Shown piece by piece: positions 2,080 to 63,540 of a stretch of 64,000 bases of DNA. The DNA comes from Miscanthus floridulus (lineage: Eukaryota > Streptophyta > Magnoliopsida > Poales > Poaceae). The position numbers and the translations under genes were made by a program. The notes under the pieces were generated by a model, which had not been told where the DNA came from, ran no database searches, and saw only the letters and a list, made by a program, of their open reading frames with translations. Position 1 is the stretch's first letter. Each line of letters starts with the position of its first letter. The DNA lies in NCBI RefSeq assembly GCF_019320115.1, contig NC_089598.1, forward strand, positions 81,054,059 to 81,118,058. The letters run 5' to 3'.

Positions 2080-3423
2080 TCAAGCGGGCATAGTAATGAA
2101 CTTCTTCTTGACGTATGTCCCTTGGTTATGATCGCACCGTAACCATGGAGTGTCCTCATCGTTTAGCTGGATGCTAGGGTCTTTGTTCACTGTGAAGGGT
2201 GAAATTCGGTCATCCTTTTCATAATCTTCTGACATGTCTGACTTGTCTTTGATTCCAACGATGTTTCTTTTTCCTAAAAGAACTATGTGGCGCTTTGGCT
2301 CATCATTGATTGGGTGGTTGTCGTTTTTCCCTCTCTTCGGTTTTGTAGACATGTCCTTGACATAGAACACCTGAGTCACATCCTTCGCAAGGACAAACGG
2401 TTCGCCTTTGTACCCAATATTGTTGAGGTCCACTGTTGTCATTCCATACTAGTTGTCGACTGCTACGCCGCCTCCAGTCGTCTTTACCCACTGGCACTTG
2501 AACAAAGGTACCTTAAAATGAGATGCATAGTCTAGTTCCCATATCTCCTCTATACGGCCATAGTATGTTTGCTTGTTCCCACTAGGGTCGGTGGCATCTA
2601 TGCGGACACCACTGTTCTAGTTGGTGCTCCTTTTATCTTGTGCTACTGTGTAAAATGTATTCCCATTTATCTAGTACCCTTTGTATGTGAGGATATGCCA
2701 CGACGGCTGCCTAGCCAACAAATATAGCTCCTCATCAATACTCTCATCACCTTGACATTCTTTTCGCAACCAGTCGCTAAAAGTTTCCATGTGCTGACGC
2801 GTAATCCATGCTTCAGACTTCCCTGAGAACTCAGATCGGAGGAGGTTATTGTGTGTCTCGATATACGGATCTACCAAGGAGGAGTTCTGTGGAACTGTGT
2901 AGTATGCTTTATTGAAATAATCATCACCCTTACCAATATATGTTTTCTTCCCTAGTGTCCCCTTTCCACTTAGTCTCCCCTCGTGTCGCGATTCAGGAAC
3001 ACCAATCGGGTTAATATCGGGAATGAAGTCAATATAGAACTCAATGACCTCCTTTGTTCCGTAGCCCTTAGCGATGCTTCCTTTTGGCCGAGCACGGTTG
3101 TGAACATATTTTTTCAGGACTCCCATAAACCTCTCAAAGGGGAACATATTGTTTAGGAACATAGGACCAAGAATAGTAATCTCCTTTACCAGATGAACTA
3201 GGAGGTGTGTCATGATATCAAAGAAGGAAGGAGGGAACACCAACTTAAAGCTGACAAGACATTGAACCACATTATTCTATAGTTTCGCTAGATCCGTTGG
3301 ATCGATTGCCTTCTAAGAAATTGCATTGAGGAATGCACATAGCTTCATGGTGGCTAGACGTACATTTGGCGGTAGAATTCCTCTTAATGCAACTGGAAGC
3401 AATTGAGTCATGAGCACGTGGCA
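2080..3423 (-). pseudogene. CACTA transposase, C-terminal half
   Basis: Minus-strand translation matches the C-terminal part of grass Tnp2-type CACTA transposases. It has a DUF4218-like segment (FPPSFFDIMTHLLVHLVKEI, then ERFMGVLKKYVHNRARP and GVPESRHEGRLSGKGTLGKK) followed by a DUF4216-like segment (VDLNNIGYKGEPFVLA) and a terminal stop at 2080. In-frame stops interrupt it, for example TAG after VVQ-distal sequence near 3275-3315 and another just before the MTTVDLNN segment, so no intact protein is made. The frame continues from the N-terminal half at 11136 across the gypsy insertion. The enzyme would have excised and inserted CACTA copies in the nucleus; this copy cannot. Confidence 0.82.
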
Positions 3424-3428
3424 GTCAT

Positions 3429-4715
3429 TGTGGCAGAACCTCCTAAGGAATCAGGCCCACATGCACCTATCGTCGTCTTAACAGACCTCGGATAGCGTAC
3501 ACGAGTTCCCAACAACTCAACAGGTCTGTCGGGTGTCCTCGGGAAACCCGAATCATCCACGATTCTCTTTTCAAACAGGATCCCAATCACAGTCATTGCA
3601 GATTACAACAGTTTATTCAAATATATACCAGAGTAAAAGATAGCAGAAGTCTTAAGATAACATAATTACAAACCAGTTGTTTTCAAACTTACAATACCAT
3701 AAGTGTCATACAACCATAGTAGCGGGATAATATTACATTAACTTTATTTATCATACAAACTAGCGCCTTGTCCAAAGGCCATTCATTATTCCTCATCATC
3801 GTTGACATCAAACACCGACATGTAGCAGGGACCAAAACAAGCCTGCGCATGCGACTCACCTGCAACAAGGGTTAACAAACCCTGAGTACAAAAGTACTCA
3901 ACAAGACTAACCCGACGTAACGGGGTTTAAGACTTTGGAGATGCAGGGGTTTGGGGCAAGGTAAGGATGTAGCAAGATTCAAAAGTTCTTTGCCAAAAGC
4001 TTACTATTCTTCATTCTATTTTCAAGTTTTACCACTAAGTACCTTTTGTTCATTAACTCAAACTAAATGTACATTTCTTGTATTCCATTCATTCTCATTC
4101 CATTCTTTTCTCATATTTTAGTAATTCACCAGTACTATATTGCTTCTGTAATGAATCAAGTCTAAATAACCGCGGAGCACCAGCAATTCGAATTGATTCA
4201 AGTCCCAGCTGAGGATTCCTTATCACACGACATATGTAGAACTCAATCTTGCATATATCAACCTTGCTACCGGATCCTCCTATACTAAGCTGTCTCCACG
4301 CCACCCGAGAGTACAGCACACCTCAAATCTAGCCACATTCCAGCCACGAGGGTACACGCTACTCCCGCCATCTCTCCACTCCCAGTGCGCGGGCATTCGT
4401 CTTAGTATCAGATTAGCCGAAGTAGGCTTACCGGAGTATGTGACCAGTACTACAAAGTGTCTCGTTCAGAAGATCCACAATGAGTAGCCTTTAAGCGACA
4501 TAACCGGCAACATTAGCCAACATTCAAGATAAGTTATCCGACTAGTCTCTAGTTCATTCTACATTCTTTATTTCTTTGGCCAGTATGCCATCTTTGATTG
4601 TATCGAAACTTTTACTTTGAAAGCCTACCATAAAGCATACTAAGCATTCTACGCCTTTGTAAATGAAAACATCTTCAAGGATGGAAACAATTATCAAGGT
4701 AGATAATGCATCAAG
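3429..4715 (-). repeat. Truncated 3' LTR of the gypsy element
   Basis: It is collinear with the right LTR from 7367 to 8912, apart from the 260-bp duplication present only on the right. Similarity stops abruptly after GATAATGCATCAAG at 4715, where protease-region sequence begins. This edge is the deletion junction. Confidence 0.85.
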
Positions 4716-6283
4716 ACTATTTCCACTGTACTCTTAGGAAAGGGAAGTTGGATGAGAAGTTGGGTTTTACTGTTAGGTGCATTTACCCTTATGGTTCTAC
4801 GCAGGACATCGATGATAGCCCCGTGTTGAGTTAACCAGTTCATACCAAGGATCACATCTATATCTTGATCCTTTAATATCAGCATATTGGTAGGGAACTC
4901 ATAACCTCCCAAATCAATAGGTACATGTTGAACTACCTCCCTTATACAGATTCGTCCCCCAGGCGACTGTATATGATAGGGTTCTTTTGTTTCCCCAATA
5001 GCTATCCCATGCTTCACAACAAATGTACGATTGATGAATGTATGGGATGCACCAGAATCAAATAAGGTAATTGCAGGATGCTTAGCAATGGGAAACATAC
5101 CCATCATAACAGGTTCTCCATCTGGAATAGATTCCACTTGCGTATAGAATACCCTTCCAGTTTGCTTCTCAGCCGGGCCCTTTTGATGGTTCTGAACATT
5201 GCCCTTGTACTGATTCTGAGATTGATTAACAGGGGCTTTGGGTGCATCAGGATTGTTCTTCCTAGGATACGGACATTCTCGAGAAAAATGTCTGGGTTTA
5301 CCACAATTATAGCATGGAAAGTTGTGATTCTAGGGAGTAGCATTGTGGTTTGCATTATTTGTATTGCTCTGCTGCTGCGGTGCCTGATGAGTGTAAGGCG
5401 TATTAGTTGCAGGGCGAATGAAGATTTGCTGCCTGCTTTGGCCTTGCTATGGGCGGAATGGCGTACGGCCATGATTCTGAGGATGGTATACTATCTTCTG
5501 ACGCTTGCCACTTGATGATCCAGAAGCAAATATTTTCTTCTTCTTCGCCTCTTTGTGTCGGCGGTAATTCTCTTCCGAAGCGATAGCAATGTTGATTGTC
5601 TCATGGTAAGTTGCATTACCATAGGCTGCCATCATTGTCTGAAGTTTAGTGTTCAAGCCTCTAAGAAAATGATTATTTTTCTTCCTGTCAGTATTCACAT
5701 ACTCAATAGCATACTGCGACAGGTGGTTGAAACGCCCAACATAATGCATCACCGGATGCTCCCCTTGCTTAAGAGCCAAGAACTCTTCTAACTTCATGGT
5801 CATCACACTGTCTGGAATATAGTGTGCCCTGAAGGCATCCTTGAACTCCCTCCAGTTGATTTGGTGACCAGTGGGCTGTACTGCTACCAAATTTGCCCAC
5901 CAGGCACCAGCAGCTCCTCAGAGTTGCTGTGCCGCAAACCTTGGTTTTTGAACCTCAGTACAGTGGATCAGCTCGAACTTTTGCTCTATTGTCCTAAGCC
6001 AACCATCAGCTTCTAAAGGTTCGTCTGCCTTAGAGAACACAAGCGGATGTGTGTCAGTAAAATCCACATAAGTTGACTCGTCATTTCCATTACGACGGCC
6101 ACAATGAGGGTATGGTGCCTGCTGGTTCTGTGCCAACTCCCTTAACAGCCTGGCATTCTCTGCCATTACATTGATGAGTGCAGCTATGGCATCTGCCATA
6201 GTCGAGGGCATTGGTGGAGGATTTGGGCACTCATCATCGTCATGCGAGCCACTAGCACCAGTTCGGGTGATAGGACGAGGCAT
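4716..6283 (-). pseudogene. Gypsy gag-protease, truncated
   Basis: One minus-strand frame runs from ATG at 6283 to the deletion junction. It begins with a basic MPRPITRT segment and a Pro-rich linker (MADAIAALINVMAENARLLREL). A capsid-type region follows (INWREFKDAFRAHYIP, then FLALKQGEHPVMHYVGRFN). Next come a CCHC knuckle CYNCGKPRHFSREC near 5275-5316 and an aspartic protease with intact catalytic LFDSGASHTF and the flap/ILGMNW region. Three in-frame stops break it: TGA at 5918-5920, TAG at 5447-5449 and TAG near 5330. The frame ends in LTR sequence. A 3' splice site (TTTCTCTAACAG) lies immediately before the ATG. Gag would package element RNA; this copy is non-functional. Confidence 0.85.
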
Positions 6284-7061
6284 CTGTTAGAGAAACACAT
6301 TTACTTACATTATTCTTTATTCAAAGCTTTTTAAAAGGTTTCATGCTACAAAGGGTTCTTATTTAAATTATATGTCTTGTATCCCACAAGACAACCCTGG
6401 TTTTCTAGGAAAGCAGTAAAGGAACTACTACTACTCCCAGCTTTTAGTCTTCGGCATCCGTGCCCGTATCGGACGAAACCTCATCTTCATCTGAGAAATA
6501 CACTAACTCCTCAGGATCCTCCTCCTCTTCTTCATTCTCGACTTCTCCTGGATCTACAATCATTTCTTCATCGGTAACTTCACCATCCCCATGAGGAGGA
6601 TGAAGTTGAGCATACAGCATATGGACATTCTCATGCAGAATGGCATTGTCCATCTCCAGGTCCTCTACGTAGAACTCCAACTCATTGACGCGTTCATTGG
6701 CCGCATCTTCTCGTGTCCAGGCTTCATTCCACAGCTCCATAGTCATGGTGATACCCCTTTGCATTTCCGCCAGCTCTTCTTGGTCTTTGGCATGAGGTCG
6801 ACAAAGAGTGTTGAGCTCCTTGTTAAGGTTCTCGATGTTGGCGGGGTTGCTCGAAGATCCTTCCTCTCCTAGGTTCTTGGAACTTCCTTCACCAAGCTCG
6901 TGATTTCTTGGTGCCAATTGGTGACGCGGGACTCCATGAGGTCCGGTGGACTTGCGTGCGGTTTTCTTGGTCTTTGCCATAGCCTGTAGAATTTAGGGTA
7001 GGACTATAAGAATAGCTTGAGGATAACGGAGGTTAGCAAGAATGGGATGGACATTACTTAC
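6284..7061 (-). other. Predicted leader intron of the gypsy element
   Basis: On the minus strand a consensus donor GG|GTAAGT (exon ends at 7062) and a pyrimidine-rich acceptor TTTCTCTAACAG|ATG (exon starts at 6283) frame a 778-bp interval. It contains the complete H3-tail-like ORF. Splicing would place the LTR leader directly on the gag ATG; unspliced RNA would present the leader ORF first. This is predicted from splice-site consensus only. Confidence 0.5.
6444..6980 (-). CDS. Leader ORF with histone H3 tail-like N-terminus
   Basis: This is an uninterrupted 178-codon ORF between the primer-binding site and gag, in a different frame from gag. After the initiator Met the protein begins AKTKKTARKSTG and, four residues on, PRHQLAP. 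Histone H3 begins ARTKQTARKSTG and, three residues on, PRKQLAT. Ten of the first 12 positions match, including K4, T6, A7, R8, K9 and S10. The middle (about residues 45-125) is heptad-like and helical (LNKELN, ELAEMQ, VNELEFYVEDLEMDNAILHENVHML). The C-terminus (about 130-178) is strongly acidic with Glu/Asp runs. No histone fold, zinc finger or catalytic motif is seen. The ORF lies wholly within a predicted intron (donor GTAAGT at 7061-7056, acceptor AG at 6285-6284). Function is unknown; mimicry of H3 is an inference. Confidence 0.7.
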   Translation of the reverse strand: MAKTKKTARKSTGPHGVPRHQLAPRNHELGEGSSKNLGEEGSSSNPANIENLNKELNTLCRPHAKDQEELAEMQRGITMTMELWNEAWTREDAANERVNELEFYVEDLEMDNAILHENVHMLYAQLHPPHGDGEVTDEEMIVDPGEVENEEEEEDPEELVYFSDEDEVSSDTGTDAED

Positions 7062-7352
7062 CCAACCACTATTAAGGGGAATTATTATGCAATGTGCTCA
7101 AGCATGATGCATGAATCGATCTTACGAATCTAAGTACAAAAGATTAATATAATCATAAGTACTAGATTTTTAATACATAGGACAAACCTAATCATATTAT
7201 CCACCACAAACTTTTCAAATAAGTCCGGATCGAGTCTAGATCAAAGGAAAGAAGAAAGAAATTTAAACTTTAAAATATCAAGTTTACTTTCTTTGATCCA
7301 AATCATTTTGAAGGTTTTCCAAAGTAACCTACAATGATCTTAGATGGGAACT

Positions 7353-7364
7353 GCTCTGATACCA
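7353..7364 (-). promoter_or_regulatory. Primer-binding site (tRNA-Met type), gypsy element
   Basis: Plus-strand GCTCTGATACCA is the inverse of TGGTATCAGAGC, complementary to the 3' end of initiator tRNA-Met. It lies two bases inside the right LTR and fixes the minus-strand orientation of the element. Confidence 0.9.
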
Positions 7365-7366
7365 GC

Positions 7367-10300
7367 TGTGGTAGAACCTCCTAAGGAATCAGGCCCACAT
7401 GCACCTATCATCGTCTTAACAGACCTCGGATAGCGTACACGAGTTCCCAACAACTCAATAGGTCTATCGGGTGTCCTTGGGAAACCCAAATCATCCACGA
7501 TTCTCTTTTCAAATAGGATCCCAATCACAGTCATTGTAGATTATAATAGTTTATTCAAATATATACCAGAGTAAAAGATAGTGGAAGTCTTAAGATAACA
7601 TAATTACAAACCAGTTGTTTTCAAACTTATAATACCATAAGTGTCTTACAACCATAGTAGCGGGATAATTCGTCTTAACAGACCTCGGATAGCGTACACG
7701 AGTTCCCAACAACTCAACAGGTCTGTCGGGTGTCCTCGGGAAACCCGAATCATCCACGATTCTCTTTTCAAACAGGATCCCAATCACAGTCATTGCAGAT
7801 TACAACAGTTTATTCAAATATATACCAGAGTAAAAGATAGCGGAAGTCTTAAGATAACATAATTATAAACCAGTTGTTTTCAAACTTACAATACCATAAG
7901 TGTCATACAACCATAGTAGCAGGATAATATTACATTAACTTTATTTATCATACAAACTAGCACCTTGTCCAAAGGCCATTCATTATTCCTCATCATCGTT
8001 GACATCAAACACCGACATGCAACAGGGACCAAAACAAGCCTGCGCATGTGACTCACCTGCAACAAGGGTTAACAAACCCTGAGTACAAAAGTACTCAACA
8101 AGACTAACCCGACGTAACGGGGTTTAAGACTTTGGAGATGTAGGGGTTTGGGGCAAGGTAAGGATGTAGCAAGATTCAAAAGTTCTTTGCCAAAAGCTTA
8201 CTATTCTTCATTCTATTTTCAAGTTTTACCACTAAGTACCTTTTGTTCATTAACTCAAACTAAATGTACATTTCTTGTATTCCATTCATTCTCATTCCAT
8301 TCTTTTCTCATATTTTAGTAATTCACCAGTACTACATTGCTTCTATAATGAATCGAGTCTCCATAACCGCAGAGCACTGGCAATTCGAATTGATTCAAGT
8401 CCCAGCTGGGGATTCCTTATCACACGACATATGTAGAACTCAATCTTGCATATATCAACCTTGCTACCGGATCCTCCTATACTAAGCCGTCTCCACGCCA
8501 CCCGAGAGTACAGCACACCTCAAATCCAGCCACATTCCAGCCACGAGGGTACACGCTACTCCCGCCATCTCTCCACTCCTAGTGCGCGGGCATTCGTCTT
8601 AGTATCGGATTAGCCGAAGTAGGCTTACCGGAGTATGTGACCAGTACTACAAAGTGTCTCGTTCAGAAGATCCACAATGAGTAGCCTTTAAGCGACATAA
8701 CCGGCAACATTACCCAACATTCAAGATAAGTTATCCGACTAGTCTCTAGTTCATTCTACATTCTTTATTTCTTTGGCCAGTATGCCATCTTTGATTGTAT
8801 TGAAACTTTTACTTTGAAAGCCTACCATAAAGCATACTAAGCATTCTACGCCTTTGTAAATGAAAACATCTTCAAGGATGGAAACAATTATCAAGGTAGA
8901 TAATGCATCAAGTAGGTAACATTTGAATTAAACAACTTAATGCAATAAGTAACATAGGTGATAAACTTTTCAAAGTAAACAAGGTAAGGGCTTAATGCAT
9001 AAACCGGGGCTTGCCTTCGTTGACGATCTCAGGTTCCGGGTCAGTACCACAGTTATCGAATCCCGTGACAACCGGGGATTCTTCCAGAACTTGCTCAACT
9101 AGAATCGTTTCGTTCTCGGGTTCTACACAAAATGATAACATATGCTTTAACATGATGATAATGTAAACATGATGCTTTCACGGTACATGAAATGTAAAAA
9201 CACCCGCAAATGATTTTATTTCACGGTACAGTTGCAAGCCAACAAAACCAACTTGCAATCCTACCATTAAGAACCACACATGTGACTTGACCAAATGGAT
9301 CTTGAAACCCTACTAGTCACAAAACATGACCAAAACAAGATCCAACACTAATCAAACACTTAGGGTTTGCTTTTATTTATTTTTGAATTAATTTGGAATT
9401 AAGCCCAAAAATGAACTTGTTCCAAATGACCTGAAAATTTTATGTAAGATTCCTCATGACAAATTAGTGTACCAAAACAAATTTCATAATTTTTGGAATT
9501 ATACAGTGACCTACAAAAATCATGGAAATTACATTTTTCAATTAATGGACTGAATATTTGAACATTAAAAATTTATTCAAATTTCAAGTTTCAAATTTTT
9601 AAATCGTACTAGAACATGTACAGAAGCTACACACAAAATTTCAGAATTTTTGGAGCTATCATGAATTTCCTACAAATTCCCAAATTTTCAGCACTATTCA
9701 CAAATTCAGAAAATAAAAATCAACACTGTTCTTCTTCCTCACTCGCACTGACAGCCAGGCCCCACTGTCAGTGACTCAAAGCTAACACACGGCGGCGTGG
9801 TCAGTTCCGATCGGCAAAATGCGCCGGCGGTGCTTCTCCGGTGAGATGGACTGCACCAACGTGACCTACACCATGTCGCGAATCTAACCCAACCCTTAGA
9901 TCAGCAACAGGCACACCAGATAGAACCCTACGCCGGCCATGGCGGCTCAGACCCGACGGCGGTCGATGTAGCTATGGCTACGGTGCAGTAGAGTCAAAAG
10001 AAAGGCGAGCATCACGCTCCGGAGCTCACCGTGATCACGAGGGTGTACTTGGTGTAGACAGAGGCGTACTGAATCGCCCTGGCCACGGTGAGGTGGGTCG
10101 CGGCGGAGCTTCGGCCGGACTCGGGGAAGACAACGTCACACGGTGGCGCTAGACGTCCAGGAGCAACACGACCAGGCTTGGGAGGAGCAGGAAGACGAGA
10201 CAGAGCTTCTGGCGGACGCTACTGACTCCAGACGCTATGACGGCGGTGAATTTTGCGAGCGCAGCGAGGTCGTCGGCGGCGAGCAGAGGCAGGAAAAGAG

Positions 10301-11130
10301 GAGAGGGACGACGACGGTACAGCTATTTATAGCTAGAAGGAGCTCGTCTGGCTTCAACAGTGCACGACGAAGATGCCACGGCGATGAAGACGTGCTAGGG
10401 CGCGAGGAAGCGGCGCAAAACGCTCGGCGGCGGCAGAGGCGTGGCGCCGGCGGTAAGCGGTGATGTAAATCCAAATTTTTGAATTATTTACAGAACTGCC
10501 ACTGAGTCTATCTTTCAAATTACTCCCTAATTTTCTAAAGAAGTTGAAAATCTCCAAAAATGAAAGTTGTTCAATTTTTCAAACTCTACAACTTTGCTTC
10601 TAGAAACATTTTCAAATTCTGCCTCCATTTTAAAATTTGAATTTGGGGTGTATTTGAGCATTTGAATCATTTCAAAATTACTCCAAATTTTATATGTAAA
10701 CTTGAAAAACTTTGAATACCAAAGTTGATCTACATAAAATAATCTCCAACTTTGCTTTTTGCCTCAACCCCAAATTCCTCATGGATTTTGAATTAGTCAA
10801 AAGGGGCAAAAAGGACTTTTATAATTTGAAAATGAATTCAAATTTGATTTGTCTTCCTTTTACTTAGATTTTGATTTTTGACCAGTAACATGGCCCATTA
10901 GGGTTATTTGAGTCAAATGACATATGGCCTCACATGATCACATGAAATTTGACCCTTGTGGTCATGATCTGTATTTAGGGTTTTTGAAATACATCACATA
11001 AAATAACAACATTATGAAATAAACCTTATTTAGTGAATGCATTCAAAACTTTATACTATATGAATGCTTTGCAATGCACATGATGATATGTCAAATTTTA
11101 GTATTAGGTCAAAACACCAGAGGTGTTACA
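7367..11130 (-). repeat. 5' LTR of the gypsy element (3.76 kb)
   Basis: It starts TGTGGTAGAACC next to the primer-binding site and ends GAGGTGTTACA at the GTCAT duplication. Its first 1.5 kb is shared with the left LTR fragment. It holds no protein of recognisable type. The GC-rich part (about 9780-10460) contains several short frames on both strands that look like noise. Most of the remainder is AT-rich. Confidence 0.85.
7411..7929. repeat. 260-bp tandem duplication inside the right LTR
   Basis: The segment TCGTCTTAACAGACC...AGCGGGATAAT occurs at 7411-7669 and again at 7670-7929. It is present once at 3473-3732 in the other LTR. The two copies differ by a scatter of transitions. Confidence 0.85.
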
Positions 11131-11135
11131 GTCAT

Positions 11136-13154
11136 GGGACTTTAAGTGTCCAAATTTCTTCTCTGGCACATTTATTATACCCTTTATATTCGAGGAGAAT
11201 CTAGATGGTACCTTAATGCTATCTAGGCATTCAAACAAGCTGTCCTTCTCTTCTTTGCTAAGAGTGTAGCTAGCAGGACTTAAGTACTGGCGTCCATCAT
11301 CTGTCTTCTCTGGATGCAGGTTGTCTCATTCTTTCAAACACCGTAGGTCCTATCGTGCTTCAATTGTGTCCTTAGGCTTCCCATACACGCCCATGAAGCC
11401 TATCAGGTTCACACAAAGATTCTTTGTCAGGTGCATTATGTCGATCGCACTGTGGACCTCTAGGACTTGCCAATAGGGTAGCTCCCAAAATATGGACTTC
11501 TTCTTCCACATGGGTGCGTGACCATTAGCGTCCTTTGAAACAAGTTGGCTGCCAGGTCCCTTTCCAAATATTACTTTCACATCATTGACCATATCGAGGA
11601 CGTCCTCACCAGTTCGGTTGCGAGGCTTGGTCTGGTGGTCTGCCTTACCTTTAAAATGCTTGCCTTTCTTTCTTATGGGGTGATTTGCAGGAAGAAATCA
11701 TCGATGCCCAAGGTACACGACCTTGCGACACTTTTTCAAGAATATACCTTTCATGTCACCGAAACAGTGTGTGCATGCATTATATCCCTTGTTTGATTGT
11801 CTTGAAAGATTACTTAGAGCTGGCCAATCATTGATTGTTACGAACAACAATGCTCGCAAGTCAAAGTGCTCCTGCTTGTGCTCATCCCACATGCGTACAC
11901 CTAGCTTGTTCCACAAAAGTAGAAGTTCTTCAACTAGTGGCCTCAGGTACACATCGATGTCGTTACCAGGTTGCTTTGGGCCTTGGATGAGCACCGGCAT
12001 CATAATAAACTTACGCTTCATGCATAACCAGGGAGGAAGGTTGTAGATACATAGAGTAACAAGCTAAGTGTTGTGACTACTGCTCTATTCCTCGAAAGGA
12101 TTCATACCATCCGTACTTAAAGCAAACCTTAAGTTTCTTGCGTCACTTGCAAACTCAGGGAATTCTCTATCGATTGCTCTCCACTGGGACCCATCAGCAG
12201 GGTGTCTCAACATATTGTCTACCTTACAGTCTTCTTTATGCCATCGCAACAACTTTGCATGGTCTCTGTTTCTAAAAAGATGTTTCAAGCGTGGTATTAT
12301 AGGAGCATACCACATAACCTTGGCAGGGATTTTCTTCTTGGGACGTTCGCCCTCAACATCACCAGGGTCATCTCACCTGATCTTATACCGCAATGCATGA
12401 CATACAGGGCATGCATCCAACTTCTCATACTCCGTGCCACGGTAGAGGATGCAGTCATTAGGACATGCATGTATCTTCTGGATTTCAAATCCTAAAGGGC
12501 AGACTACCTGTTTTGCTTCATACGTAGTGTTGGGCAATTCGTTATCCTTCGGAAGCATCTTCTTTTGGATTTTTAGTAACTCCGCGAATCCCTTGTCAGA
12601 TACACCATTCTTTGCCTTCCATTGTAGCAATTCCAATGTGGTACCTAACTTTTTCTGCCCCGCATCACAAGTTGGGTATAACAATTTCTTATGATCCTCT
12701 AGCATGCGGTCGAACTTGATCTTCTCCTTTTCACTTTCGCATTCTCTTTGTGCATCACGAATGGCCTGACCAAGATCGTCAGTGGGCTCCTCCTCTGCCC
12801 CTACCTCTTCTTCAGCGGGCTTCTCCTCTGCCTCCTCTTCTTCAGCGGGCTTCTCCTTTGCCCCCACCTCTTCTTCAGCTTCCCCCATTGCAGTATCATT
12901 GAAGGCACCATATTCAACAAAATGTCATCATCGCCCTATTGTTCTTCTTCACCTTCTTCCATTACAACTCCGGTTTCTCCGTGCTTCGTCCAACAAATAT
13001 AGTTTGGCATGAAACCCGACTTGAACAAGTGTGAATGAAGAGTCTTTGAGTTAGCATATTCCATCGTATTCTTACATACGGCACATGGGCAGCACATGAA
13101 ACCATCGCGTTTGTTTGCCTTGGCCGCACATAACAAAGAATGCACGCCGTCCAT
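11136..13154 (-). pseudogene. CACTA transposase, N-terminal half (Tnp2 core)
   Basis: The minus strand gives, in order, a transposase-associated domain (MDGVHSLL..., cysteines of CCPCAVCKN, then GFMPNYICWTKHGE), a Glu/Ala/Pro-rich low-complexity linker, and the zinc-containing start of the Tnp2 core (HACPNDCILYRGTEYEKL, DACPVCHALRYKIR). The core follows (WYAPIIPRLKHLFRN, ADGSQWRAIDREFPEF, FALSTDGMNPF, MMPVLIQGPKQPGNDIDVYL, GYNACTHCFGD, IMHLTKNLCVNLIGFMGVYG). In-frame stops occur, for example TGA after ALRYKIR and a stop after GMNPFEE. The reading then enters the gypsy insertion and resumes at 3423. This is a typical grass CACTA transposase, now dead. Confidence 0.88.
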
Positions 13155-31828: not shown

Positions 31829-33526
31829 CTAATGATATATCATTTTAGCAACATGATCTCTAAGAAAGTGATGGCGGATATCTATGTGCTTGGTGTGAGA
31901 GTGTTGAACCAGATTATTTGCAAGTTTTACCGCACTTTCATTGTCGCACAAAAGAGGTACTTTATCTAGAACTATACCATAGTCTAGCAAAGTTTGTTTC
32001 ATGTAAAGTATTTGTGCACAACAAGCACCCACGGCAATGTATTCTGCTTCGGCGGTGGACAAAGCCACACTATTTTGCTTCTTGAAGGACCAAGACACAA
32101 GTGATCTACCAAGCAAATGGCACCCTCCGAATGTGCTTTTTCTATCAACTTTGCACCCGGCATAATCCAAATCGGAATAGCCAATTAATTCAAATATAGC
32201 TCCTTTGGGATACCAAAGGCCAATGCTTAGTGTGTGCTTAAGATACCTAAGGACTCTTTTTACGGCAATTAAATGAGTTTCCTTAGGATTAGCTTGAAAT
32301 CTTACACACATACACACACTAAACATGATGTCGGGCCTAGATGCGGTTAAATATAACAAGCTACCAATCATAGAGCGGTAGATAGTTTGATCAACCGTGT
32401 TACCTCCCTCATCTAGGTCGAGATGTCCATTAGTTGGCATTGGTGTCTTGATTGGCTTACATTCATCCATCTTGAATCTCTTGAGAAGATCATTTGTATA
32501 TTTCTCTTGAGAGATAAAAATCCCTTCTCTTATTTGTTTGATTTGAGAACCAAGAAAGAATGTAAGCTCTCCAATCATCGACATCTCGAACTCCTTCAAC
32601 ATCAATTCACCAAACTCTTTGCAAGAATCTTCATTTGATGATCCAAAGATGATATCATCAACATACACTTGACAAATGAAGATGTATCCATCAAGCTTCT
32701 TGGTGAATAGTATGGTGTCGACCTTCCCGATGGTGAAGCCCTTCTTAATGAGGAAGTCCCGTAGGCGCTCATACCAAGCTCTTGGGGCTTGCTTAAGCCC
32801 ATATAATGCTTTGGACAACCTATAAACATGATTAGGATATCTAGGGTCTTCAAACAAGAGAGGATGATCAACATAGACTAGTTCATTAATAAAGTCATTT
32901 AAAAATGCACTTTTCACATCCATTTGATATAGTTTCATTTCATGATGTGATGCATATGCAAGGAGGATACAAATGGCTTCTAGTCTTGCAACCGGTGCAA
33001 AGGTCTCTCCAAAATCCAATCATTCAACTTGAGAGAACCCCTTTGCAACTAGTCTTGCCTTGTTCCTCACAACTACGCCTTGATCATTTTGCTTGTTGCG
33101 GAACACCCACTTTGTTTCAATGACTCTTGCTCCTTTTGACCGCTCTTCAAGAGTCCAAACTTCATTGCGGGTGAAGTTGTTCAACTTCTCATGCATGGCA
33201 TTTATCCAATCCGGATCTTGAAGAGCTTCTTCTACCTTGGTAGGCTCATAGCAAGAGACAAAAGAGTGATGAGCAATAAATGAAGCAAGTTTTTGTAAGC
33301 GAGTCATTACACCCTTTGATGGACTCCCTATGATGAGATCTTGTGGATGATCTTGTAGTAGAGGTGTATTTCTTCTATTGACCACTTGAGGAGGAGGTTG
33401 TAGAGCATCAACATCTTGTGCTTGTACCACCATTTGATCATGGGAGACATGGGTGTCTTCATTTTCTACTCTCCCATCTTTATCATCATCTTGTGGCACA
33501 TTTAATGAAGAAGGTGGATCAATCAC
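31829..33526 (-). pseudogene. Copia reverse transcriptase and RNase H
   Basis: One frame runs from 33526 to 31829 except for an in-frame TGA at 33017-33019 just before LDFGETFAPVARLEA. Upstream is the linker and start of the RT domain (WTLEERSKGARVIETKWVF). Downstream are MDVKSAFLN, the catalytic YVDDIIFGS, FFLGSQIKQ and the RNase H residues in GYSDLDYAGC, STAEAEYIAVGA and LLCDNESAVKLA, ending RHHFLRDHVAKMIYH. RT copies element RNA to DNA in the particle and RNase H removes the RNA. All visible catalytic residues are present; the stop and broken neighbours disable the polyprotein. Confidence 0.93.
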
Positions 33527-34649
33527 TTGTACATCATCTTTAGGCTTGATGTCTCTAACCGGATGTTCTTCATAGCCTCCCTCAATGGTTCATCACCTAC
33601 ATCATCAAGATTCTCATGTGCTCCTTGGGAGCCATTAGATTTATCAAATTCCACATCATATGTTTCTTCAACCAAGCTGATGGCATGATTAAATACTCTA
33701 TATGCTTTGGACTTTAATGAGTAACCAATAAGAAAACCAATATCACAACGTCTTTGAAACTTCCTTAGGTGTTGTCGCTTCTTGTAGATGTAGCATTTGC
33801 AACCAAACACCCTAAAGAAGGAGACGTCCGACTTCTTCCCATTGAGCAACTCATAAGGTGTCTTGCCAAGGAACTTTTGAAGGAATAGGCGGTTGGATGC
33901 ATAGCATGCGGTGTTGATAGCTTCCGCCCATAGAGCTTCGGGGGTATTGTACTCATCAAGCATTATTCTTGCAAGGGTGATCAATGTCCGGTTCTTCCTC
34001 TTAACTACACCATTTTGTTGAGGAGTATATGTTGCAGAGACCTCATGTTTGATTCCAACTTCATCACAATAGGCTTTTATGTTTGTGTTGTCAAATTCCT
34101 TCCCATTGTCACTTCTTATCTTCTTGAGCTTCACATCAAATTCATTTTGTGCTCTCTTGGCAAACTTCTTGAAGTATGATGCAACTTCGGATTTGTCATG
34201 AAGGAAGAATACCCATATCTTGAATAGTCATCAATAATCATATGACAATAAAGATTTCCTCCCAAACTCTTGTATGTTGTTGGCCCAAATAAGTCCATAT
34301 GAAGGAGTTCTAGCACTCTTGTGATTGACATGAAAGCTTTGGTTGGATGAGTATTTGCAACTTGCTTGCCGGCTTGACATGCACTACAAAGCTTGTCCTT
34401 CTCAAACTTCACATCCTTCAACCCTCCCACCAAATCATTCTTCATTAGCTTCTTGAGTGAGCTCATCCCAACATGAGCAAGTCTTCTATGCCATAGCCAC
34501 CCAAGTGTTGTTTCGGTGAATAGACAAGTCTTCAAATTTACATCTTCGGAGGTGAAATCCACTAGATATAGGTTGTTGTATCTAAATCCTTTGAATATCA
34601 CTTGATCATCATCCTTCTTAGATACAACAACTTCCTTCTCAGTGAACAA
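33523..34649 (-). pseudogene. Copia GAG-pre-integrase and integrase
   Basis: The N-terminal HHCC zinc region is visible (LWHRRLAHVGMSSL then CSACQAGK), followed by the first two acidic active-site regions (ELLHMDLFGPT and IIDDYSRYG). A frameshift then separates this from the rest of the core at 34134-33523 (IRSDNGKEFDN, TPQQNGVVKRKNRTL). In that last motif the residue normally occupied by the third catalytic acid, Glu, is Lys (AAG). The frame also ends early through a second disruption near 33540. The protein would insert element cDNA, but with the acid lost and the frame broken it cannot. Confidence 0.9.
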
Positions 34650-34673
34650 GCATTGGAAGCCAAGATCACATAA

Positions 34674-34919
34674 TTATCCAATGGATAGCAAGTTGAAGCT
34701 CAATGAAGCAACATATAGCACATTTGAGATAGAATGAACATTTGATATTGCCACTTTGCCCAATCCTTTAACCTTGCCCTTTGAGTTATCTCCAAATGTG
34801 ATTCTTTCTTGTCCATCTACTTCTTTATCTAGTGAGGTGAACATACGAGGATCACCGGTCATATGTTGTGTGCAACCACTATGAATAACCCAATGACTTC
34901 CACCGGTCTTGTAGTTCAC
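34674..34919 (-). pseudogene. Copia aspartic protease region, active site altered
   Basis: The protease core WVIHSGCTQHMTGD is followed by ITFGDNSKGKVKGLG and NVLYVASLSFNLLSIG. The catalytic motif is normally D-S-G; here codon CAT gives H-S-G. Stop codons lie just upstream (near 34920-34950). The domain would process the polyprotein; loss of the Asp should abolish that. Confidence 0.88.
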
Positions 34920-35141
34920 CTACACACAAGAGATCAAGCTTTAGGAACCCAAACTTGTTGAGGGCCCTTCACCTTCTCAACAAGTGACTTTGCAACCCAA
35001 ATTTTCTTAGGCCTATTCTTGTTTGGAGGTCCTAAGAACATGACTTATCTTTCCACTAGAATCCTTTCTAAGCATGTAGTGAGCATTGAAGGCAAAAGGT
35101 CTAGCATGCTTGGGCAAGGGTTGTGGTGGTGGAGTTTGGCA

Positions 35142-36008
35142 CTCATGAGCAAAGTGACCTTCTTGTCCACATTCAAAACATCTCTTTGGCTTTGGCTTTA
35201 ACTTGTGTTATTGTTGAGCTTGAGCCTTCTTCTCTTGGTTTGCAAAATACCCAATGCCACTTCTATCCATCTTCATGATGGTGTTCATAAGTAGCTCACT
35301 TTGTAGATACTTGCCTCTTGTGAACTTGCTCAATCCAATCTTGAGATGCTCTTTCTCCAATTTTAGCTTTTTGTTTTCTTCCTTGAGAGCATCATTGTTT
35401 TTCTCTTCCTTGAGCTTCTTGTTCTCTTCTTTGAGCTTCTCATTCTCAAGGATCAAGTCACCATCATGATCAAGAGTTTCTTGCACAATAGTGTTGTGGC
35501 TTTTGATCTCTTTAAGATCTTTCTTGAGCTTTTCATTGTCATTCTTGAGCTTGACAAACTCATCATAATCATCAGCCTCAACCACTTGCTTGCCCTTGCT
35601 ACTAGAACTTTGCTCAATGCTCTCAATGATTAAATCATCACATGATGTAGCTATATCAATCTTAACAACATCGTTAGTAGCATCATGTGGCTCATTGGAT
35701 AAGAATTCTTGAGCAATAACAAGATTATCATGATTGATCTTTAGAGTTGTATATTCTTCTTTTAGCTTGTTATGGCTAGTGATGAGCTCATTGTGTATCC
35801 TCTCAAGTTTATCATGTTTTTCTCTAAGCTCTTTCTTAGAAGATTTGAGCTCCTTGAGTTTGGATGATATAGCATCATTTGCTTCTCTAAGCTCAATACT
35901 AGCCTTTTCCGCCATATCACATTTTGCTAAAAGCAAATCATTCTTAGCTTCTAGCTTTTCATTCTTAGCTCTAGTCTTTATAATGATCTTAGTGTATTGT
36001 TTTAGCAA
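35142..36008 (-). pseudogene. Copia gag C-terminal coiled coil and second zinc knuckle
   Basis: In the same frame as gag and protease lies about 260 residues of Lys/Glu/Leu/Asn-rich heptads (LKELKSSKKELREKHDKL, NEKLKKDLKEIKSH, LKEENKKLKEEKNN), a long predicted coiled coil. A stop follows near 35205, then a CCHC knuckle CFECGQEGHFAHEC at about 35148-35190. A long coiled coil after the first knuckle is a feature of SIRE-type Gag and probably mediates assembly. Confidence 0.8.
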
Positions 36009-37330
36009 TCTAGCAAGATCATCATAAGAAGGTGATTCATATTTATCATCATCACTATCACTATCATCATTACTAGCATGTTCATCACCACTACTATCAT
36101 CATCATTTGATACCTTGCGTTCACCCTAGGCCATGAGGCATAGGTGTGTAGAGGATGATGGTGGTGGTGGTGGTGAAGATGATGAAGAGTCAATAACAAT
36201 TACGGCCACCTTCTCGTTGTCACTATCATCATTGGATGAGCCACTAGAAGAATCAATGTCCGTGAGCCAATCACTAATGATGTATGCCTTTCCACTCTTC
36301 TTCTTCTTATAGAAGTCTTTCTTCTTGCCATCTCTCTTCTTGTATGGCTTGTTTTTCTTCTTCTCATCTTCTTCTTCTTTACTTGAGTCATCTTTCTTAC
36401 CCTTGTACTTATTCTTGAACTTATCTTTCTTGGGCTTGGTGCATTGGTGTGCTAGATGACTAAGTTCTCCACAATTGTAGCAATCCATCTCGAAGATTGG
36501 CTTTCTTCTAGAGCTAGTGAAGAACTTGTTCTTCTTGCTATCGAACTTGATGTCACTCTTGTTGAGCTTCTTTAGCATCTTGGCGGTTTTTCTCACCATG
36601 AGAGCAAGACTTGCATCATCAACTTCATCATCACTTAAGCTCTCATGCTCAAGTCTTGCTTTGCCCTTCTCTTGGCTAGCTTTGAATGCTAAGTCCTTTT
36701 CTTTCTTCTTGTTAGAGGATGAGCCATCTTGAGGTGTGATGTGCATGTACATCTCATGAGCATTGATCTTTCCCAAGATTTGTGTCGGTGTAGCGGTGGA
36801 AAGATCACCTTGATGAAGCACGGTCACAATATGCCCATATTTGTCAATGCGGAGGACACTCAAGATCTTTCTTACAACATCGAATGGTTGCATTTGAGTG
36901 AGTCCAAGCCCATTGACTTACTCTACAAGAACATTCAAACATGAATACATTTCATTAGCACATTCTTTAGAAAGCATCTCAAAAGAGTTAAGCTTTTTCA
37001 TGACAAGATGATAGCGTTCCTCACGCTCACTCTTTGTTTCCTCATGGAGCGCACAAACGTCCAACCATAGTGCATGGGTGTCTTTGTGGTTCCTCACCTA
37101 GTTGAACACATCTTTGCAAAGATCTCTAAAGATGGTGTTTCGAGCCTTTGCATTCTATTTCTTGTAATTCACCTCATTGCCTTGTAGGTTAGTAGCATTC
37201 TGAGGTTTTGGGAAGCCTTGTGAGGCGGCTCTAAGTATTCCAACACTAGAGCTTCTAAGTACGCCTCCATGCGAATTTTCCAATATGGAAAATCATCCCC
37301 TCAAAGATAAGAGGAGGTCCATCCCCGTGA
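36009..37330 (-). pseudogene. Copia gag, capsid part and first zinc knuckle
   Basis: The best frame begins around 37330 but has stops above 36893 (for example in the segment before VNGLGLTQ). From 36893 it reads MQPFDVVRKILSVL, then QILGKINAHEMYMHI. An acidic/basic linker and a CCHC knuckle CYNCGELSHLAHQC near 36460-36500 follow, then Lys-rich and Ser/Asp-rich stretches. A TAG at 36126-36128 separates it from the coiled coil. Gag would form the particle and bind RNA. Confidence 0.85.
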
Positions 37331-62308: not shown

Positions 62309-63390
62309 ATGTCTGAAAGGGTTTATCTAGCTTCATTTCTCATTGTCACCAGCTTCCTCTCCACCATCAGCCATTTCTATATGCTTGCCGAAGCCGGCGC
62401 CTTCCCAGATGATGACATCTTCGCCTTAGACATTGTGTAAAAAATCCGCACAGACCGCAACGACCATGAAGGCCTCTATGGACTTTGGCCACATTGTGGA
62501 AGCTATCCCAAACGGGGTACTCCATCCGACCTCACCCAACGACATTGCCGCCCTAATCCTGCTCTCACTCTCCCAGCAGCCAAAGCCCTTCACAGTGGCG
62601 CCACGCGGGCAAGGGCACTCAGCTCGAGGGCAAGCCCTCGCCCCAGGCGTCGTCGTCGTCGACATGCGCTCGCTCGGCTATGATCACCGTGTTGATGGTC
62701 GCTGCCGCATGAATGTGTCCACCCACGAGCTGTGGGTGGACGTCGGCGGCGAGCAGCTATGGTTCGACGTCCTCCACACTACGCTCGAGCACGGCCACGC
62801 GCCACGCGTCTGGACCGACTACCTCCACATCACCGTCGGCGGCACACTCTCCAATGGCGGCATCGGCGGGCAGGCGTTCCGCCATGGGCCGCAGATCTCC
62901 GACGTGCACGAACTTGACGTGGTAACAGGTACACGTCTCTTGCTGGCCATGTATGTATACATAAATCTGAGAGCTGACCAGTGCACAATATGTAATGGAT
63001 CTGTATTTTTTTGTTGACAATTAACTAACGAACAAGCTATATATGTTGGTGGTTGCAGGCACGGGCGAAATGATCAGCTGTTCGCCGGACAAGAACTCGG
63101 ACCTGTTCTTTGCAGCACTGGGTGGGTTGGGTCAGTTTGGGGTCATAACCCGGGCTCGGATCGCGTTTGAACCCGCTCCCAAACGGGTTCTTTGGGTCCG
63201 ACTCGCCTACGCAGATGTACAATCGTTCACCGGTGACCAGGAACTGCTCATCTCGAAACGGTCTGCCGGCGATTCCGGTGGTTTCGACTACATTGAGGGC
63301 CAAGTCCAGCTGAACCGGATCCTCACCGAGGGCCGGATGTCGTCTTCCTTCTTCTCAGCCCTAGAGCTCCATCAGTTTGCCAAAAATAAC
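62309..63390 (+). pseudogene. CKX: Cytokinin oxidase/dehydrogenase, truncated
   Basis: CKX enzymes are secreted flavoproteins that cleave the cytokinin side chain. The start MSERVYLASFLIVTSFLSTI is a signal peptide. Exon 1 then has the FAD domain, with HPTSPNDIAALI, the FAD-linked His in RGQGHSARGQA, VVVDMRSLGYD, DYLHITVGGTLSNGG and VHELDVVTG. A GT...AG intron (62929-63058) separates exon 2 (CSPDKNSDLFFAALGGLGQF, AFEPAPKRVLWVRL, FDYIEGQVQLN). A TAA at 62438-62440 and a 1-base shift about 20 bases later break exon 1. Similarity stops near 63360-63390, so roughly the C-terminal 40% (substrate domain) is missing; MITE-like and LINE sequence follow. Cytokinin degradation cannot be carried out by this copy. 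Confidence 0.88.
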
Positions 63391-63429
63391 CCCCTAGGCT
63401 TTCTAGTAGCTAAGAGAAAAAATTATACT

Positions 63430-63540
63430 CCATCTCAAAGGAAATGTCATTTTAGCTTCAATGTTAAATCAAATCATCTTTAGTTTAATTAAGTTTTTAT
63501 AAATATGTACTAATATTTTTTGAGGGAATCAGGAAAGGTT
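63430..63540. other. Possible Stowaway-like MITE fragment
   Basis: TACTCCATCTCAAAGGAAAT resembles the start of grass Stowaway elements (TACTCCCTCCGTCCC type). The other end is not found. It lies at the break of the CKX copy. Confidence 0.35.

Follow-up and report, generated by a model that had tools for sequence, protein, structure and literature searches.

A histone H3-like N-terminal tail on the leader protein of Tekay/Del-like retrotransposons in Miscanthus floridulus

A stretch of 64,000 nucleotides from Miscanthus floridulus, here called the window, contains an LTR retrotransposon whose leader protein begins like histone H3. The locus raises the question of whether this resemblance exceeds chance, where the H3-like start came from and what it may do for the element that carries it.

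The retrotransposon (Table 1) is bounded by a 5-base target duplication, GTCAT, at 3424-3428 and 11131-11135, and its LTR identity of 98.2% corresponds to an age of roughly 0.7 million years if a rate of 1.3e-8 per site per year is applied. A tandem duplication of 259 bases inside the 5' LTR (7411-7669 and 7670-7928, 95% alike) adjoins the primer-binding site, which we take to be of the initiator tRNA-Met type. The gag piece gave no Pfam match, and an integrase/chromodomain query returned zero matches in the window, this copy being without both. The leader ORF is a separate sense-strand ORF between the primer-binding site and gag, an arrangement also seen in locus L009; the sequence-only reading had given its coordinates correctly, and its strand is minus.

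Table 1. Features of the retrotransposon in the window (window positions; element on the minus strand).
Feature	Position	Strand	Basis or remark
Ty3/gypsy LTR retrotransposon, Tekay/Del-like	3429..11130	-	reverse transcriptase, RNase H and integrase missing
5' LTR (element's orientation), ~3.8 kb	7367..11130	-	self-comparison of the window
Primer-binding site, TGGTATCAGAGC	7353..7364	-	2 bases off the LTR
Leader ORF (ORF0 / 5' additional ORF), 178 aa	6444..6980	-	start 6980, stop 6444
Histone H3-like tail, Met + 24 residues matching H3 1-23 with one insertion	6906..6980	-	sequence comparison, shuffles, profile
Long helix, residues 46-126, predicted coiled coil	6603..6845	-	AlphaFold2, residue 51-120 blocks at pLDDT 93-98
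Acidic C-terminus, residues 127-178	6447..6602	-	low-confidence/disordered in the model
Gag N-terminal part	5918..6283	-	frame open to 5918; by eye like gag of related copies
Aspartic protease part	4694..5107	-	PF08284, E 8.3e-30
3' LTR, truncated	3429..4715	-	98.2% identity across 1243 bases with 7670-8912

Several other features were observed in the window. Minus-strand ORFs at 2080-3213 and 12373-12888 flank the retrotransposon and presumably correspond to parts of a CACTA-type DNA transposon that hosts the insertion. A large inverted repeat at 655-1710, whose arms by eye begin with gggtaaagtataatttac and its complement, is perhaps a foldback element. By eye, the ORFs at 31829-36893, one kind gag-like and another reverse-transcriptase-like, suggest a Ty1/copia element, and those at 62466-63483 look similar to a plant cytokinin oxidase.

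After the initial Met, the leader protein reads AKTKKTARKSTG, identical to H3 residues 1-12 at 10 of 12 positions; one inserted residue separates this match from PRHQLA, which agrees with H3 PRKQLA at 5 of 6. Both matches, already pointed out from the sequence, were borne out by the statistics. With residues 2-25 shuffled 200,000 times, 10 N-anchored identities in 12 were never reached; the window tail had a local score of 67 where shuffles averaged 25.5 (z 8.7), and the four tails tested by shuffling gave z values of 8.7-10.7. In searches of the PDB, the window protein alone reached E 0.096 at best, the best 60 of its 80 matches being all H3-type. A profile of 24 chosen relatives reached E 9.9e-6 with a Cse4-labelled chain that, as printed, begins with an H3-type tail, and E 1.6e-4 with the best H3-labelled chain; the best 60 of its 156 matches were all H3 or centromeric H3. 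On the shuffles and the profile search we reject chance as the source of the resemblance, and sequence comparison supports well that the similarity of these 24 residues behind the initial Met to H3 1-23 goes beyond it.

The remainder of the protein agrees with the earlier description of a coil with an acidic C-terminus and no histone fold. AlphaFold2 predicted one long helix (46-126), with the tail and C-terminus at low confidence; no Pfam histone match and no Foldseek match in the PDB were obtained, and Pfam and NCBIfam searches of the leader proteins returned just coiled-coil-type or sub-threshold matches.

The genome that contains the window (2.68 Gb, 19 large contigs) was searched for leader copies. 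The window protein returned 8550 first-look candidates, of which 150 were scored; these were 93-100% identical to it, all 150 aligned from residue 1 and 136 had no internal stop. Besides the window's own family (A), a second family (B) has the tail MARxKMTPRKSTGPKGVPRHQLAPRND, found upstream of gag in locus L021. With the family B protein P0083 as query, 149 of 150 scored genome matches aligned from residue 1, and the queries P0079 and P0228 returned mainly family B type copies. Protein searches gave 418 matches with the leader and 2282 with a profile (the best 120 listed in each case), and relatives at 33-46% identity retained the tail start, the homology search being biased to relatives with shared 5-residue words. 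It is well supported by these alignments that families about 40% identical overall still have the tail, which is common to several families with diverged or different bodies. The possibility that an H3 tail was captured in the window copy alone is ruled out by the 150 scored copies and the related families that carry it, and the absence or loss of the N-terminal match in relatives, which the sequence-only reading had named as fatal to its proposal, was not what we found. Amongst the matches are many metagenome proteins with names that sound bacterial (SlyX, glutamine synthetase type III, RmuC); they seem to be leader ORFs of plant retrotransposons to which automatic annotation gave wrong names.

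In eight 9.6-kb stretches around leader copies, an integrase/chromodomain piece was present downstream in seven, and in L009 one open frame encodes gag, zinc knuckle, protease, reverse transcriptase, RNase H, integrase and chromodomain domains. The L009 chromodomain, C-terminal in the integrase, matched PF00385 at E 1.9e-5 and 24.9 bits, slightly under the Pfam cut-off of 25.1, and the integrase core was also slightly under its own cut-off. Judged by the domains of its relatives, the element is a Tekay/Del-like chromovirus, and the expectation of a chromodomain holds for the relatives, the window copy itself being without one.

Conservation within the tail is uneven. Among 24 chosen rows (tail numbering without Met), G12, P13, G15, V16, P17, H19, Q20, L21, A22 and R24 were invariant and T6, R8, K9, T11, R18 and P23 were kept in at least 90%; ten of the 17 invariant columns of the alignment fell within the 24 tail positions (hypergeometric p 3e-6). 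In 179 complete tails from 225 proteins, K9 was kept in 178, T6 in 174, R8 in 168 and S10 in 155, and P17 (179), Q20 (177), L21 (178) and A22 (179) were kept at counts that lean high because the selecting regex itself demands VP..QLA. Not included in these counts are three proteins whose start was too short and 40 that lacked the regex motif, most of them fragments or starting late. In a set of 76 family A and B copies from the genome, picked without the motif demand, K9, S10, P17, Q20 and A22 were kept in all 76. The positions R2, K4, Q5 and A7 differ among families: R replaces K4 in 132 of the 179 tails, Q5 is mostly K, and family B has P in place of A7. Only 11 of the 179 tails retain K14, and the K23 position is R. 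Of the H3 contexts pointed out in the window protein, those of K9 and S10 are largely kept among its relatives, and that of K4 is not, nor is A7 in family B.

Between families A and B, pN was 0.175 in the tail against 0.58 in the linker, 0.37 in the coil and 0.41 in the C-terminus, the values outside the tail being inflated by alignment error; synonymous change was also lower in the tail (pS 0.62-0.63 against about 0.85 elsewhere). The stronger purifying selection predicted for residues 1-25 was seen only in this comparison. Within family A, pN/pS was 0.17 for the tail, 0.16 for the coil, 0.21 for the linker and 0.27 for the C-terminus; within family B the corresponding values were 0.37, 0.21, 0.12 and 0.24, the tail being the least constrained part. 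The samples comprised 65 of 76 loci (61 distinct) obtained with a regex that included part of the tail, and all 76 loci without the regex left the tail picture unchanged. Tighter purifying selection on the tail than on the body was not found within families by these ratios. The tail is old and retained, and recent copies do not show constraint on it above that on the body.

Tails nearer to H3 were also found. P0228 starts with MARTKQTARKKTG, closer to H3 than the window's tail, and P0247 starts with MARTKQTARKSTG (more fully, MARTKQTARKSTGRVPRHQLAPR), followed by a body different from the helical one. Against the genome, P0247 gave 9744 first-look candidates; 149 of 150 scored copies aligned from residue 1 at 85-91% identity, with open frames of up to 363 aa among them. 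P0247 alone matched H3 tails in the PDB at E 7.5e-4, and against the loci extracted here it matched both leader tails and host H3 genes. The single P0247-type genome copy read, L111, starts with MARTKQTARKSTGGRAPSRQLAPR and shares 18 of 23 H3 residues without a gap. By analogy with the description of grass 5' additional ORFs (aORFs) in sections of PMC11728184, P0247-type ORFs likely lie in Tekay elements. The P0247 body, under an almost exact H3 start, appears alpha-beta in character, and such ORFs are abundant. When its single-sequence model (mean pLDDT 64) was run through Foldseek, no match reached E 0.001; a plant DRB7.2:DRB4 chain ranked 44 at E 0.4, which does not establish a double-stranded-RNA-binding fold for this body.

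The end of the tail coincides with a gene boundary. In all four intron-containing H3 genes read, which we take to be H3.3-type, coding exon 1 encodes Met and residues 1-23, with the intron directly behind the K23 codon; at least three further listed genome loci match H3 residues 1-24. The leader tail ends where this exon ends, its R24 corresponding to H3 K23. The codons were compared with p-values that are uncorrected, use codon usage from families A and B, and come from copies that share ancestry and are not independent. On that footing, family B shared 11.5 of 15.1 codons at shared residues with the intron-containing H3 gene L108 (median p 1.5e-4) and gave p 1.2e-3 with L109, against 0.46-0.52 with four intronless H3 genes. 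The single copy L111 shared 12 of 18 codons with L107 (p 7.8e-4) and gave p 0.0037 with L110 and 0.059 with L108 and L109; with intronless genes its p was as low as 0.0039. L111 and L110 have 56 of 72 bases in common, a number that random synonymous recoding attained in 197 of 20,000 draws. Family A, the window's own, gave no significant codon agreement with the four intron-containing genes (p 0.08, 0.51, 0.51 and 0.23). The codon data lend moderate support to an H3 gene as the ancestor, and more so to one with an intron. Since the profile match, the exon end at K23 and the codon lean in two families point the same way, the tail most likely derives from an old H3 first exon: an ancestral element likely captured it long ago, and selection probably kept it. 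Exon capture, first raised as a way in which the mimicry idea could fail, is in this sense the probable origin, in an old event shared by several families and not in this copy alone.

The function that we favour, and judge evenly poised, is that the leader protein is a histone-tail mimic made from a captured H3 exon and acts as a decoy or by docking. The helical body, probably coiled-coil and oligomeric, would display at least two free, disordered H3-like tails. In the nucleus these would occupy a host protein whose contacts with H3 lie around residues 8-12 and 16-23; as a decoy, the element would blunt H3K9-directed silencing, and by docking, its particle or integration complex would be tied to chromatin machinery. 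Going by the residues kept, a common ligand would have to use R8-K9-(S10-T11)-G12 together with P16-R17 / Q19-L20-A21 (H3 positions) and tolerate changes at R2, K4, Q5 and A7. Readers that need K4 or A7 could not be that ligand because K4 is so often R and A7 is P in family B, and K4 is ruled out as the point of mimicry. An H3K9 enzyme or reader is in keeping with the retention of K9 in nearly all tails.

Docking on the element's own chromodomain, one of the uses first suggested, fares less well. In the relatives' chromodomain the cage tryptophan is retained, the third cage residue is replaced (by alignment to MPP8) and the first is missing (by eye), the pattern of group II chromodomains, in which the first and usually the third cage residue are lost. 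Parts of PMC3350952 and PMC6317226 describe group II chromodomains without these residues and state their partner as unidentified. Because the cage residues are absent, docking of methyl-K9 on the element's own chromodomain is doubtful, and its simple form is rejected.

Alternatively, the captured tail may have been kept as a nuclear import signal, with an H3 importin bringing in ORF0 and any bound particle and chromatin left unaffected. We consider this unlikely, though it has real grounds: according to the relevant section of PMC5677370, H3 1-28 is an import signal and the transportin-type Kap-beta2 binds H3 11-27, a site that spans the best-kept block of the leader tail, and nuclear localisation has been predicted by others for Tekay 5' ORFs in the corresponding part of PMC11728184. 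The same section of PMC5677370 has Kap123 requiring K14 and K23, which the tails seldom keep or replace by R, so that Kap123-type import as it stands is ruled out; the second block would fit a Kap-beta2-like importin better. A charge-type signal, moreover, needs no near-invariant T6, G12, P16, Q19, L20 and A21. Decoy or docking is ranked above import because conservation in the two blocks extends to individual residues, neutral ones as well as basic.

An H3-derived tail could also have an unrelated present job, such as RNA packaging or aiding translation of the downstream gag, for which the leader position in the genomic RNA and the pairing of a basic tail with an acidic C-terminus would be apt. 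This seems to us improbable: since tail amino acids are retained between families A and B (pN 0.175) while synonymous sites differ (pS 0.62-0.63), the peptide rather than the RNA appears to be under selection, and neutral residues are retained as strictly as basic ones. Convergence or chance, with no descent from an H3 gene, would suit the family A codons and the weak PDB match of the lone protein, yet is very improbable given the shuffles, the profile search, the gap-free match and shared bases of L111, the family B codons and the coincidence of tail end with exon end.

If the mimic reading is extended, a plant chromovirus line may have captured H3 exon 1 as a swappable tail module on varied ORF0 bodies, host histone enzymes may modify the tail, H3K9 silencing factors may be drawn from the element's chromatin, and the cage-less group II chromodomain may have its missing partner in the tail. 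We offer this extension tentatively, as possible but rather doubtful.

ORF0 itself is already known, and the H3-like tail on it is absent from the literature searched. Gao et al. (2012, PMC3485330) described ORF0 in Retrosat2, RIRE3, RIRE8, FRetro3, ZMsat2, Sorsat2 and Brasat2. In the portions of that paper on ORF0, it is, like the leader here, an extra ORF before gag-pol in Tekay/Del-type elements with LTRs of more than 3 kb, and it diverges faster than gag-pol and has an unknown function; unlike here, its proposed origin is a frameshift or capture of unrelated DNA, its annotation is hydrolase-like, and the word histone does not occur in the text. The 5' aORF proteins of sunflower and grass Tekay elements share the element position and a nuclear prediction in the passages of PMC11728184 that treat them. 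There, the grass proteins (maize Tekay, sorghum Sb7) have an alpha-beta part weakly like double-stranded-RNA-binding proteins, to be compared with P0247, the sunflower protein is 402 aa, proline-rich and unlike the grass ones in sequence, and histone is likewise absent. The passages on additional ORFs in PMC7264820 do not mention an H3-like tail. In a search that covered few subscription journals, no paper named such a tail in an ORF0 or paired the H3 start sequence with a retrotransposon.

ORF0 has so far been called functionless or of unknown function. If the mimic reading is true, a transposon protein that bears an H3 tail and has thousands of candidate copies in one genome would provide a concrete and quickly testable link between transposon and silencing machinery in plants, and histone mimicry would have arisen via exon capture instead of convergence. 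Compared with the intron-containing H3 genes, the leader shares residues 1-23 and the exon end, and differs in its helical body and acidic C-terminus in place of a histone fold. Viral and host histone mimics carry ARKS/ARTK motifs, short and H3-like with a K9 context, and to our knowledge such mimics are short motifs. Mimics with motifs of this kind are listed in part of PMC10611923. The leader tail is likewise H3-like and shares the K9 context with them; it differs in being a whole N-terminal tail, as long as exon 1, that a plant retrotransposon carries and that probably descends from an H3 gene.
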